Assembly: GCF_016031655.1 (NCBI RefSeq)
Contig: NZ_JACCHQ010000005.1
Span: forward strand, 1 to 64,000
DNA from: Bradyrhizobium glycinis
Lineage (GTDB): Bacteria > Pseudomonadota > Alphaproteobacteria > Rhizobiales > Xanthobacteraceae
DNA: 64,000 nt
Direction: 5' to 3'
Shown: in pieces, positions 40,120 through 54,071 of the stretch
Layout of the letters: each line of letters begins with the position of its first letter
How positions within the stretch are numbered: position 1 is the first letter of the stretch
Position numbers and translations under genes: made by a program
Notes under the pieces: model-generated
Seen by the model: only the letters and a program-made list of their open reading frames with translations
What the model was told of the DNA's origin: nothing
The model's database searches: none

Positions 40120-40215
40120 ATGATTTTACTGCTGAATTCAAGCTCGTCTTAATCCGGAAGCAAGATTCGGCGTGCTAGCAACACGGTACGGCGGGTTGGA
40201 CCCACACAGATCGGT

Positions 40216-40305
40216 CCAAAGGCATGATGCCGCCCTTCCGTACCGGTGGAAGCCCGGTATGTCCCCTCGTGAAAATGTAAACGCGTACATAAAGGGACAT
40301 TCGCA
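40216..40305 (+). promoter_or_regulatory. structured 5' leader of flagellin gene lafA1
   Basis: The first 51 bases (40216-40266) match the lafA2 leader at 46 positions. They contain a small GGC/GCC hairpin (40221-40231) and TACCGG/CCGGTA (40241-40259). ATGTCCC (40259-40265) can pair with GGGACAT (40294-40300), which includes the AAAGGGA ribosome site 8 bases before the ATG. The 28-base linker between these strands is unlike that of lafA2. Pairing would hide the ribosome site. Confidence 0.65.
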
Positions 40306-41214
40306 ATGTCAAGCCTGCTTACGAACTCGACTGCCATGACCGCACTCCAGACACTGCGGTCTGTGGGTTCGCAACTCTCCACCACGCAGAACCGGATCTC
40401 AACCGGCCAGCGCGTGGCCACCGCTTCGGACAACGCCGCCTATTGGTCGATCGCCACCTCGATGCGCGCCGACAACGCCGCGCTCTCCGCCGTCTCCGAC
40501 TCGCTCGGTCTGTCGGCTGCGACCGTCGACACCGAATATACCGCTCTGACCACGGTCATCGGTGACAAGGACTCCGGTCTGACCAAGCTCCAGTCGCTGC
40601 TGGTCCAGGCCAAGACCGCGGGTATCGACCGCACCAAGATCCAGGCGGACGTCACCCAGATCCAGCAGCAGATGAAGAGCACGGCCAATGCCGCGACCTT
40701 CAACGGCATCAACTGGCTGAGCACGACGACCGGCACCACACCGACGAGCTTCAGCCTGGTGTCGTCGTATTCTCGCGTCGGCGGCACGCCCACGATCGGC
40801 TCCATCACCGTGACGACTGCCAACTACACGCTCTACTCCAGCACGCAGACCGGTATCCTTGACACGGTGAGCGGCAGCGCCTCGGTCGACACGATCAACA
40901 TCGCCGCGCTGACGGACTCGGCAGCCGACCAGACCACGCTCGATGGCTACATCGCGCAGGTCACGACCGCCATCAATTCGGTGGCCGCGTCCGCCGCCAA
41001 TCTCGGTGCCGTCAAGAACCGCATTTCGACCAACACGGAGTTCGTGAAGTCGCTGATGGACTCGGTGGACCGCGGTGTCGGCCAGCTCGTCGACGCGGAC
41101 ATGAATGCGGAATCCACCCGCCTTGCCGCGCTTCAGGTTCAGCAGCAGCTCGGCGTTCAGGCGCTTTCGATCGCCAACAACAGCAGCCAGAGCATCCTGT
41201 CGCTGTTCCGCTAA
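40306..41214 (+). CDS. lafA1: flagellin, lateral type (LafA1-like)
   Basis: 302 residues. The N-terminal D0/D1 helices (MTALQTLRSVGSQLSTTQNR, then ISTGQRVATASDNAAYWSIA) and the C-terminal ones (SLMDSVDRGVGQLVDADMNA and LQVQQQLGVQALSIANNSSQ) are intact, with a short central domain of about 100 residues, so it is a small filament protein. Very similar to the next gene throughout. Size and tandem arrangement match the lateral flagellins of Bradyrhizobium. It is preceded by CtrA-type sites and a conserved leader, and followed by a strong terminator, so each flagellin is its own transcription unit. Confidence 0.96.
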   Translation: MSSLLTNSTAMTALQTLRSVGSQLSTTQNRISTGQRVATASDNAAYWSIATSMRADNAALSAVSDSLGLSAATVDTEYTALTTVIGDKDSGLTKLQSLLVQAKTAGIDRTKIQADVTQIQQQMKSTANAATFNGINWLSTTTGTTPTSFSLVSSYSRVGGTPTIGSITVTTANYTLYSSTQTGILDTVSGSASVDTINIAALTDSAADQTTLDGYIAQVTTAINSVAASAANLGAVKNRISTNTEFVKSLMDSVDRGVGQLVDADMNAESTRLAALQVQQQLGVQALSIANNSSQSILSLFR

Positions 41215-41230
41215 GACTGGATCATCGGGG

Positions 41231-41262
41231 AAGGGCCGCGCTTCTCGCAAAGCGCGGCCCTT
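41231..41262 (+). terminator. intrinsic terminator of lafA1
   Basis: A perfect 13-bp stem, AAGGGCCGCGCTT (41231-41243) with its complement (41250-41262), a 6-base loop, then TCGTTT. It ends transcription 17 bases after the lafA1 stop. Confidence 0.85.
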
Positions 41263-41329
41263 TCGTTTGGCGTGACCACGCGCGCTCAAGTTCGGCCCGC
41301 CTGTTGCGGCCGGGACACAGAGCCACAAG

Positions 41330-41341
41330 CCCCGCACAAGC
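41330..41341 (+). promoter_or_regulatory. flagellar upstream motif at lafA2
   Basis: CCCCGCACAAGC, one base from the consensus. It lies 144 bases before the ATG instead of the 42 to 57 seen at other genes, which leaves room for the ~100-base structured leader. A TTCGCTCGCTAACC segment follows; a similar TTCGGCGTGCTAGC follows CAAGA at the matching place of lafA1 (about 40161). Confidence 0.5.
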
Positions 41342-41401
41342 TTCGCTCGCTAACCTCGCCGCTACGACAGATTGGGCCTTGAACCCGCGTTTGCGGGAAG
41401 C

Positions 41402-41485
41402 CCAAAGGCATGACGCCGCTCTGTCGTACCGGTGCAAGCCCGGTATGTCCCCCAAGCTCGATTCAATCTTCAAAGGGACATCAAA
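41402..41485 (+). promoter_or_regulatory. structured 5' leader of flagellin gene lafA2
   Basis: Positions 41402-41452 align without gaps to 40216-40266. Hairpins GGC/GCC (41407-41417) and TACCGG/CCGGTA (41427-41445) are preserved, and ATGTCCC (41445-41451) again complements GGGACAT (41475-41481), covering the AAAGGGA ribosome site 4 to 5 bases before the ATG. Linker length (23) and sequence differ from lafA1, so the pairing elements are what is conserved. Confidence 0.65.
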
Positions 41486-42400
41486 ATGGGTTCTAGTCTC
41501 CTCACCAACTCCTCCGCCATGACCGCGCTCCAGACCTTGCGGTCTGTCAGCGCGCAACTCGCCACCACGCAAAACCGGATCTCCACCGGCCAGCGCGTGT
41601 CCACCGCTTCGGACAACGCCGCCTATTGGTCGATTGCGACCTCGATGCGTTCCGACAACGCCGCGCTGTCCGCGGTCTCCGACTCGCTCGGCCTGTCGGC
41701 TGCGACCGTCGACACCGAATATACCGCTCTGACCTCGGTGATCGGCGACAAGGAATCCGGCCTGACCAAGCTCCAGGCGCTGCTGGTCGAAGCCAAGACT
41801 GCCGGTATCGACCGCACCAAGATCCAGGCGGACATCACCCAGATCCAGCAGGACATGAAGCTCAAGGCCAATTCGGCCACCTTCAACGGCATCAACTGGC
41901 TGAGCACGACGACGGGTACCACTCCGACGAGCTTCAACCTCGTGTCGTCCTACTCGCGTGTCGGCGGCACGCCCACGATCGGTTCGATCACGGTGACGAC
42001 TGCCAACTACACGCTCTACTCCACGACGCAGACCGGTATCCTGGACACCGTGGCCGGCAGCGCGTCCGTCGACACGATCAACATCGCGGCGCTGACCGAC
42101 TCGGCCGCCGACCAGACCACGCTCGATGGTTACATCGCTCAGGTCACCGCTGCGATCAACTCGGTGAGCTCGGCAGCTGCCGATCTCGGTGCGGTCAAGA
42201 ACCGCATCTCGACCAACTCGGAATTCGTCAAGACCCTGATGGACTCCGTGGATCGCGGTGTCGGTCAGCTCGTCGACGCCGACATGAACGCGGAATCGAC
42301 CCGCCTGCAGGCTCTGCAGACCCAGCAACAGCTCGGCGTTCAGGCGCTCTCGATCGCCAACCAGAACAGCCAGAGCATCCTGTCGCTGTTCCGCGGCTAA
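41486..42400 (+). CDS. lafA2: flagellin, lateral type (LafA2-like)
   Basis: 304 residues starting MGSSLLTNSSAMTALQ; an in-frame ATG upstream at 41432 lies within the conserved leader and is rejected. Terminal helices are as in lafA1. The central part is also nearly the same (TPTSFNLVSSYSRVGGTPTI), and differences are scattered conservative changes, pointing to a tandem duplication held similar by selection or gene conversion. Followed by a terminator at 42418-42444. Confidence 0.96.
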   Translation: MGSSLLTNSSAMTALQTLRSVSAQLATTQNRISTGQRVSTASDNAAYWSIATSMRSDNAALSAVSDSLGLSAATVDTEYTALTSVIGDKESGLTKLQALLVEAKTAGIDRTKIQADITQIQQDMKLKANSATFNGINWLSTTTGTTPTSFNLVSSYSRVGGTPTIGSITVTTANYTLYSTTQTGILDTVAGSASVDTINIAALTDSAADQTTLDGYIAQVTAAINSVSSAAADLGAVKNRISTNSEFVKTLMDSVDRGVGQLVDADMNAESTRLQALQTQQQLGVQALSIANQNSQSILSLFRG

Positions 42401-53316: not shown

Positions 53317-53661
53317 ATGACGTTTGAAGCCTATGAAGCGGTCGTTGACGAAAGTGGCTATGAGGCGCGCAGCCGGGAGCGGCAGGCACTCAGCCTCGGC
53401 ATCGACCGGCTCGAGCGGATCCAGAAGGGACGTTTCAGCCTCGAGGATCAGGTCGAGAGCCTGCTCTATGTGCGGCGGCTGTGGACGATCTTCATCGAGG
53501 ATCTCGCACACCCGGAGAACGGGCTGCCGGACAAGCTGCGCGCCGACATCATCTCGATCGGGCTGTGGGTGGTCAAGGAAGCCGACCGCCTCCGCGAGCA
53601 ACGGTCGAGCGACGTGATGCAGCTCATCGAAATCAACCGCCTGATCCGAGACGCGCTTTAA
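53317..53661 (+). CDS. flaF: flagellin biosynthesis regulator FlaF
   Basis: 114 residues from the ATG that gives the family start TFEAYEAVVDES; an earlier ATG at 53287 is possible. Diagnostic features are the RERQALSLGIDRLE and LYVRRLWTIFIEDLAHPEN segments and the C-terminal DVMQLIEINRLIRDAL. FlaF promotes flagellin secretion/assembly together with FlbT in alphaproteobacteria. TAATG overlap with flbT. Confidence 0.94.
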   Translation: MTFEAYEAVVDESGYEARSRERQALSLGIDRLERIQKGRFSLEDQVESLLYVRRLWTIFIEDLAHPENGLPDKLRADIISIGLWVVKEADRLREQRSSDVMQLIEINRLIRDAL

Positions 53662-54071
53662 TGAAGATCTCCTTGCGCGCGGGCGAACGGATTTACATCA
53701 ACGGCGCGGTGCTCCGCGTGGACCGCAAGGTCTCCGTCGAGCTCGTCAACGACGTGATGTTCCTGCTCGAAGGGCAGGTCATGCAGGCGTCGGACGCCAC
53801 CACGGCGCTGCGACAGCTCTATTTCATCGTCCAGCTCATGCTGATGAACCCGACCGACGTTCGCGACGCTGCGGCGCTCTACGCCCAGCATCACGCGGCC
53901 CTGTGTGCCGTTTGCGAGAACCGGGAGATGCTCGATGGGCTCGGCGCGATCGACGAACTGGTCGGGGCGACCCGCTATTTCGAGGCGCTCAAGCGGATTC
54001 GAGCGCTGTTTCCGGTGGAGCAGGCCATCCTGGCCGGCGCCGCCGCCGTTTCCCCAGTCGAAGCTGCCTGA
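53661..54071 (+). CDS. flbT: flagellin mRNA regulator FlbT
   Basis: 136 residues. Start MKISLRAGERIYINGAVLRV, then NDVMFLLEGQVMQ and FIVQLMLMNPTDVRDAAALY identify FlbT. In Caulobacter FlbT acts on the 5' leader of flagellin mRNA; in Brucella and Bradyrhizobium lateral systems it is needed for flagellin production. Both flagellin leaders in this window share a structured element that could be its target. The gene overlaps flaF by 1 base. Confidence 0.95.
   Translation: MKISLRAGERIYINGAVLRVDRKVSVELVNDVMFLLEGQVMQASDATTALRQLYFIVQLMLMNPTDVRDAAALYAQHHAALCAVCENREMLDGLGAIDELVGATRYFEALKRIRALFPVEQAILAGAAAVSPVEAA

Follow-up and report, generated by a model that had tools for sequence, protein, structure and literature searches.

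A structured leader RNA at flagellin genes of Bradyrhizobium and other Hyphomicrobiales and its co-occurrence with one FlbT subfamily

The 64 kb stretch of Bradyrhizobium glycinis DNA analysed here (the window) carries on its forward strand two lafA-type flagellin genes, identified by the Pfam domains Flagellin_N and Flagellin_C, i.e. flagellin gene 1 (40306..41214, 302 aa) with a start codon at 40306 and flagellin gene 2 (41486..42400, 304 aa) with a start codon at 41486. The same strand holds flaF (53320..53661; Pfam FlaF, E=1.4e-31) and flbT (53661..54071; Pfam FlbT, E=2.3e-40), and an initial annotation, made from the letters alone, had rightly placed flbT in the same cluster as the flagellin genes. 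Both flagellin genes are preceded by leaders that BLASTN aligns without gaps over 51 bases (40216-40266 and 41402-41452; 46 of 51 identical, 90%), in agreement with the block that had been described there. A TACCGG/CCGGTA hairpin and a complementarity between ATGTCCC and GGGACAT, which the initial annotation had also reported, are indeed present in both leaders, the latter correct to the base and with linkers of 28 nt (leader 1) and 23 nt (leader 2) between its strands. One stem and one hairpin, real as they are, nevertheless give an incomplete picture, because the conserved unit is an RNA with five helices. The 51-base block is the core of a structured leader of approximately 120 nt, whose 5′ part, consisting of the helices P1 and P2, had gone unnoticed and reaches up to 40187 in leader 1 and 41363 in leader 2.

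Leader RNA 1 (40187..40308) extends through the start codon of flagellin gene 1 and is matched by two covariance models, R1 and R2, at E=4.4e-23 and E=6.3e-19, respectively; leader RNA 2 (41363..41489) extends into flagellin gene 2 (R1 E=4.7e-25; R2 E=1.8e-20). R2 finds both leaders and no other place in the window (E≤0.01), and R1 finds both and no other place in the whole genome (E≤10). In leader 1, P1 pairs 40188..40195 with 40234..40241, with a single C-U mismatch; in leader 2, it pairs 41364..41371 with 41420..41427. Two hairpins lie between these strands, P2 (40196..40219, pairing 40196-40202 with 40213-40219, and 41372..41405, pairing 41372-41377 with 41400-41405) and P3 (GGC-AUGAU-GCC at 40221..40231 and GGC-AUGAC-GCC at 41407..41417). 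The hairpin P4 (CCGG-UGGAAGC-CCGG at 40243..40257 and CCGG-UGCAAGC-CCGG at 41429..41443) is followed by the 5′ strand of P5, AUGUCCC, at 40259..40265 and 41445..41451. The 3′ strand of P5, GGGACAU, lies at 40294..40300, where it overlaps the sequence AAAGGG, the presumed ribosome site of flagellin gene 1 as judged from its position, and at 41475..41481, again over the presumed ribosome site. P1 to P4 are assigned on the basis of covariation among relatives, complemented for P3 by the conservation of its AUGA loop, and P5 on the basis of sequence, covariation and separate tests of this helix.

Computational folding of both leaders, a check suggested in the initial annotation, was modestly better than chance at best, with z-scores between −0.14 and −3.26: stretches of 146 nt gave −1.67 for leader 1 and −3.26 for leader 2, and shorter stretches −1.21 (leader 1, 96 nt) and −0.14 (leader 2, 91 nt). 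As folding of a lone leader thus says little, the question was settled by comparison across relatives. With a 161-base stretch around leader 2 as the query, matches were obtained in 51 of the 117 genomes from this genus, and 105 distinct Bradyrhizobium leaders were extracted by a script with a pattern that comprised the P4–P5 core including ATGTCCC and allowed up to four substitutions. Alignment of 47 of these 105 leaders by MAFFT and consensus folding by RNAalifold, i.e. with no structure imposed, yielded the five helices, which in the majority sequence read ACGACAGG/CCUGUCGU for P1, UUGGGC/GCCCAA with a variable loop for P2, GGC-AUGAN-GCC for P3, CCGG-loop-CCGG for P4 and AUGUCCC/GGGACAU for P5; the register of P1 and P2 was set by hand and differs slightly from that of RNAalifold at the P1/P2 junction. 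In this architecture, P1, P2 and P3 meet in a three-way junction that is closed by P1, and P4 and P5 then follow with almost no unpaired bases. P1 and P2 covary already within Bradyrhizobium, where P5 has changed in 15 cells, always by an A-to-G exchange opposite U and always with the pair retained.

Since P1 and P2, beginning at 40188 and 41364, covary as RNA and so should be transcribed, a transcription start downstream of 40265 or 41451, a finding that the initial annotation had listed as speaking against its proposal, seems unlikely. Mapped starts of lafA transcription were not found in the literature searched. Approximately 10 nt 5′ of P1, both leaders have a GCTA (40174-40177 and 41349-41352 in the window), the TA of which is invariant across the 47 aligned leaders; this GCTA may be part of a promoter, which would place the start just before P1.

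With R1 built from the 47 leaders of the same genus and R2 from 83 divergent matches, the comparison could be carried to more distant relatives. In an alignment of 124 matches (A7), both sides have changed in 26 of the 28 base pairs (P1 8/8, P2 6/6, P3 3/3, P4 4/4, P5 5/7), which are the compensatory changes that a covariance model had been proposed to look for. Paired cells amount to 93.2% overall and to 99.8% in P4, double-change cells number 490 as compared with 130 in shuffled alignments, none of 500 shuffles comes up to the real alignment in any of five measures, and sliding the register lowers the score greatly in every case. The 83-row alignment A4 has changes on both sides in 24 of 28 pairs. 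All these counts come from model-fitted alignments, which favour structure and count related sequences several times, and the model-free alignment by MAFFT and RNAalifold serves as a guard against the former of these biases. Conservation is pronounced in the loop of P3, which starts with AUGA in 118 and with AU in all of the 124 matches; the P4 loop is variable and conforms to UGNRANY in 37 of 124.

P5 deserves separate consideration. It is kept in all 105 Bradyrhizobium leaders, the second strand being GGGACAT in 92, GGGACGT in 10 and GGGGCGT in three, and the latter two still pair with the 5′ strand through G-U. Uncompensated breaks of this helix, which would have argued against the original proposal, were thus not seen among these leaders, which had been selected by their ATGTCCC core with up to four substitutions. 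Together with double changes in P5, which appear in relatives more distant than Bradyrhizobium, this lends comparative support to the proposed stem over the ribosome site. The reasoning first given for it, i.e. that pairing must have been maintained because the linkers differ, is not sufficient, since the P5 strands are identical in both window copies. Across 85 leaders, the P5 linker ranges from 15 to 41 nt with a median of 21 nt.

For a test of P5 on its own, the 12 bases right after P4 were set against the 24 bases before a start codon that a flagellin motif made recognizable, which could be done for 110 of the 124 rows. A stem of at least 5 bp is present in 105 of these 110 flagellin leaders and one of at least 6 bp in 97, with 37% and 13%, respectively, as the background when the 24-base site is shuffled; as more than a third of the shuffled sites already allow 5 bp, it is the 6-bp count that can be trusted. 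Broken pairing among homologues, again named beforehand as contrary evidence, does occur in five of the 110 leaders, which lack a 5-bp stem, against the 97 that form at least 6 bp; AUGUCCC has been lost in L137, L143 and leaders like them. For the 23 leaders with a first strand other than UGUCCC, their own partners beat permuted ones (2/2000; 18/10 000 in a longer run), as they do for the 16 that remain after dropping seven close relatives (74/10 000), with the own partner being better than the canonical one in just 12 of the 23. The clearest natural compensation is found in genome G356, where three tandem flagellin leaders have GUCUUUC/GAAAGAC in place of GUCCC/GGGAC. This rewritten P5 (L344, G356:C3:642000-647000) adjoins AAGGAAAG before the start codon, as it does in L160 from the same genus, and L126, a related leader, pairs AUGUUCC with GGAACAU. 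In A7, the outermost A-U pair of P5 fails in 67 of 122 cells, and its six inner pairs comprise 13 unpaired cells, as compared with 48 one-sided changes in P5 that still pair. P5 is thus a phylogenetically supported helix that covers the ribosome site, provided that the GGG, as its position suggests, is this site.

Among 397 Hyphomicrobiales genomes from 141 genera, R1 has matches in 99 genomes and 39 genera, and R2 in 112 genomes and 40 genera. On a class-wide sample of 385 genomes, R2 matched two, both from the genus of the window, and did not match the other 383, which include at least three more of the same order. Among the matches listed, the RNA occurs in Bradyrhizobium, Tardiphaga, Mesorhizobium, Ensifer/Sinorhizobium, Rhizobium, Agrobacterium and Aminobacter as well as in Hyphomicrobium, Microvirga, Xanthobacter, Pannonibacter, Roseibium and others. 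Named genomes were scanned with a pattern that fixed the first P5 strand as ATGTCC and gave at least 118 stretches, 80 of which were searched. Overall, this is a real and widespread leader RNA family, which is undescribed as far as our tools show.

Among the matches listed, there are 221 hits, i.e. 103 from collection A3 (R1) and 118 from collection A5 (R2), two collections that overlap and are not independent; 200 of these hits have a flagellin gene directly downstream, and in 196 of these 200 the start codon is within about 10 nt of the end of the model. The RNA is therefore located in the flagellin 5′ untranslated region, with covariation arguing that the element is transcribed as a whole. 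The 21 other hits among these listed matches comprise eight that run off the fetched stretch, nine chemotaxis-type genes and four other or unidentified genes (L106, L126, L161 and L229). According to Pfam, the chemotaxis-type genes encode a protoglobin with an MCP signalling domain in three whole open reading frames (L144/L174, L151/L175 and L159/L183), a protoglobin without an MCP domain in two open reading frames cut by the stretch (L147 and L156), HAMP with or without MCPsignal in L155, L163 and L224, and a CheA-like kinase in L132. Five protoglobin-chemoreceptor leaders have kept P1 to P4 and are missing AUGUCCC, which shows that the conserved domain and P5 are separable; leaders of this type include L147, L175, L156, L183 and L174. 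At L229:7339-7455 (minus strand), the RNA, with P5 apparently intact, lies approximately 230 nt before a gene for a protein with ALTTAQ repeats instead of a flagellin gene.

A candidate for a trans-acting partner of this RNA is FlbT. In an alignment of 22 FlbT proteins, two subfamilies can be distinguished: FlbT from the window belongs to the L-type, in which it is 47–51% identical to nine others and shares a motif like INGAVLRVDRK, and the other subfamily, with a motif like LREKDIL, is 19–24% identical to the window protein and contains the second FlbT of this genome. L-type FlbT, assigned at E≤1e-23, is encoded by 110 of 112 genomes with the RNA (78/80 and 32/32). It was found in four of 128 tested genomes that have FlbT and lack the RNA (0/48 and 4/80), the sample holding 177 such genomes in all and the last eight of the 80-genome set having been drawn unevenly, some for an odd-looking FlbT. 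A P-value of 1e-60 for the association of RNA and FlbT type takes no account of relatedness and is given no weight here; within Bradyrhizobium alone, L-type FlbT is present in 6/6 genomes with and 0/9 genomes without the RNA.

The exceptions are few. The RNA without FlbT is seen in G227, a genome that is 86% complete, and in G368, where the RNA hit is weak. Conversely, one of the four genomes with L-type FlbT and no RNA, G356, does have the RNA below threshold, and G234 has a single noise-level hit (E=0.125) that is not at a flagellin gene. G414 and G428 also have L-type FlbT; their flagellin leaders were inspected (L336, L339 and L340) and contain no match to R2, and have possibly been replaced or have highly diverged. 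When 33 other genomes without the RNA were searched as laxly as G356, the best E was 0.07. One RNA-less genome, G482, carries a decayed L-type flbT with four in-frame stops (G482:C4:43316-43687; 35% identity, E=4.7e-16), and G277 from the same genus has both the leader RNA and an open flbT.

As the RNA and flbT belong to one gene cluster, their co-occurrence demonstrates a package rather than an interaction. It could be explained by shared linkage, in which case FlaF and other products of the cluster should show the same association. In the 80 named-genome stretches searched, no flbT gene was found beside a leader RNA. The FlbT sequence has no counterpart better than E=1.1 among solved structures, and PDB fold searches with a FlbT model (mean pLDDT 89.5) gave no match at E≤0.001; the Z-scores of up to 9.9 stem from the helical part and are in a range common for helical bundles, and no structural conclusion is therefore drawn from them. 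A relationship of FlbT to CsrA found no support, the hhalign probability with a single CsrA sequence being 1.2%.

That FlbT acts on flagellin leaders in Caulobacter had already been invoked in the initial annotation. Review text does describe Caulobacter FlbT as a repressor that binds flagellin 5′ untranslated regions (PMC3930126), i.e. as a post-transcriptional regulator of flagellin leaders in another alphaproteobacterium, Caulobacter crescentus. The sign of control, however, may have to be reversed: as summarized in part of a review citing Mongiardini 2017, the flbT product of Bradyrhizobium diazoefficiens translationally induces LafA1 and LafA2 (PMC8429497), and for FlbT and fliC of Brucella, activation has been proposed by a mechanism that is unresolved in the portion available of a further review (PMC4347634). 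Available text from eLife states that FlbT-dependent repression in Caulobacter requires the flagellin FljJ (PMC7591256), and a screen for motility genes in Agrobacterium, as far as its accessible text goes, picked up both flbT and flaF (PMC9812332).

Sequence comparison has established the helices, the coverage of the presumed ribosome site by P5, the distribution of the RNA and its co-occurrence with one FlbT subfamily. We propose, with a probability of roughly 0.6, that the leader is a translational off-switch opened by L-type FlbT, in which P5-mediated repression, FlbT binding and the opening of P5 are the inferred components. P1 to P4 would form a compact domain, most likely a platform for protein binding, and P5, directly following P4, would pair with the ribosome site and thereby keep translation low by default. 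The most likely regulator would be the L-type FlbT encoded in this lateral-type flagellar cluster, although this assignment is a well-founded guess. By binding to the P3/P4 domain, FlbT would open P5 or prevent its formation, and flagellin synthesis would have to await expression of the flagellar genes, flbT among them. How FlbT recognizes flagellin messages, and why it should repress in one alphaproteobacterium and activate in others, are questions left unresolved in what is available of two reviews (PMC3930126 and PMC4347634). New here is a defined RNA, supported by covariation and given to the exact base, that accompanies one of the two FlbT subfamilies. In an order with nitrogen-fixing symbionts among its members, flagellin genes and some genes of the chemotaxis type are moreover connected by a shared leader RNA.

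A more far-reaching and quite tentative idea is that of a new motility riboregulon. The modular RNA domain may act as its receptor, read by either FlbT or a small molecule, and may set the expression of flagellins, chemoreceptors and the CheA-like gene, with P5 being just one output of several.

It is also conceivable, if rather doubtful, that the leader is such a translational switch but responds to another effector such as FlaF, flagellin itself, a global RNA-binding protein or a small RNA, with FlbT acting elsewhere or only as a partner. The gene flaF adjoins flbT and hence has the same linkage, and the FljJ requirement in Caulobacter (PMC7591256) would fit a flagellin as effector; yet FlbT is the sole translational regulator named for LafA1 and LafA2 in the available part of the review (PMC8429497). 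An unlikely variant is a riboswitch, with the three-way junction as the binding site of a small molecule or second messenger and P5 as the expression platform. The compact junction, the nearly invariant AUGA loop, the presence of chemotaxis-type genes among the targets and a modular output, with P5 at most flagellin genes and missing at protoglobin-chemoreceptor leaders, are in line with such a function. There are, however, few conserved unpaired bases besides AUGA, the RNA is restricted to one order in the samples searched and tracks a single protein subfamily, and no riboswitch in Rfam matches it.

Folded 5′ ends can shield an mRNA from decay, and the leader could be such a stability element for an abundant flagellin mRNA or a passive thermometer, in either case with no dedicated ligand. 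This is improbable, as the P3 loop and the letters of P4 are conserved beyond what stability would need, and the RNA also precedes chemotaxis-type genes and co-occurs with one FlbT subfamily. Mere paralogous descent of a promoter–leader region, or an inverted repeat at the DNA level, with no RNA function would account for the window copies taken alone, with their 90% identity over 51 bases and weak folding scores, and can hardly be upheld in view of the double changes at 26 of 28 pairs and of the fact that all 48 one-sided, still-pairing changes in P5 are U-G on the mRNA strand, which is not expected of a DNA palindrome.

In its layout, with a helix covering the ribosome site behind a conserved domain, the proposed switch has counterparts elsewhere. 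Leaders of the ribosomal-protein type and translational riboswitches can likewise sequester the ribosome site; in our proposal, the effector would be a flagellar protein, and no structural relationship to those leaders is claimed. The CsrA–FliW system, in which, according to the text available, a protein controls flagellin translation, is a functional analogy alone (PMC4894983). A description of the leader RNA was not found in the literature searched, with most subscription papers being outside its reach. Rfam 15 (4227 families) gave no match at gathering score in the window or at 20 loci of distant relatives with the RNA, and at E≤1 its only hit in eight loci, IRES_Bip at L120:1206-1288, lies outside the RNA and below the cut-off. 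In the leader region, the sole Rfam hit at E≤5 is Twister-sister (RF02681; E=2.1), with the consensus of which the P4 hairpin of leader 2 has the letters CCGGUGCAAGCCCGG in common. This candidate was rejected because its score of 17.9 bits is far below the cut-off of 34 and the P4 loop, which resembles a T-loop, lacks conservation. RF01736 (flg-Rhizobiales) resembles the leader described here in being a candidate cis-regulatory RNA that lies close to flagellar genes of this order, but differs in structure and sequence, with GGGAGA hairpins, and matches neither the window nor the 20 distant loci. Its only match in this genome at E≤1 (G000:C7:16020-16165; L172) lies beside rod genes of the FlgE/F/G type, so that two unrelated candidate leader RNAs for flagellar genes are found in one and the same genome.
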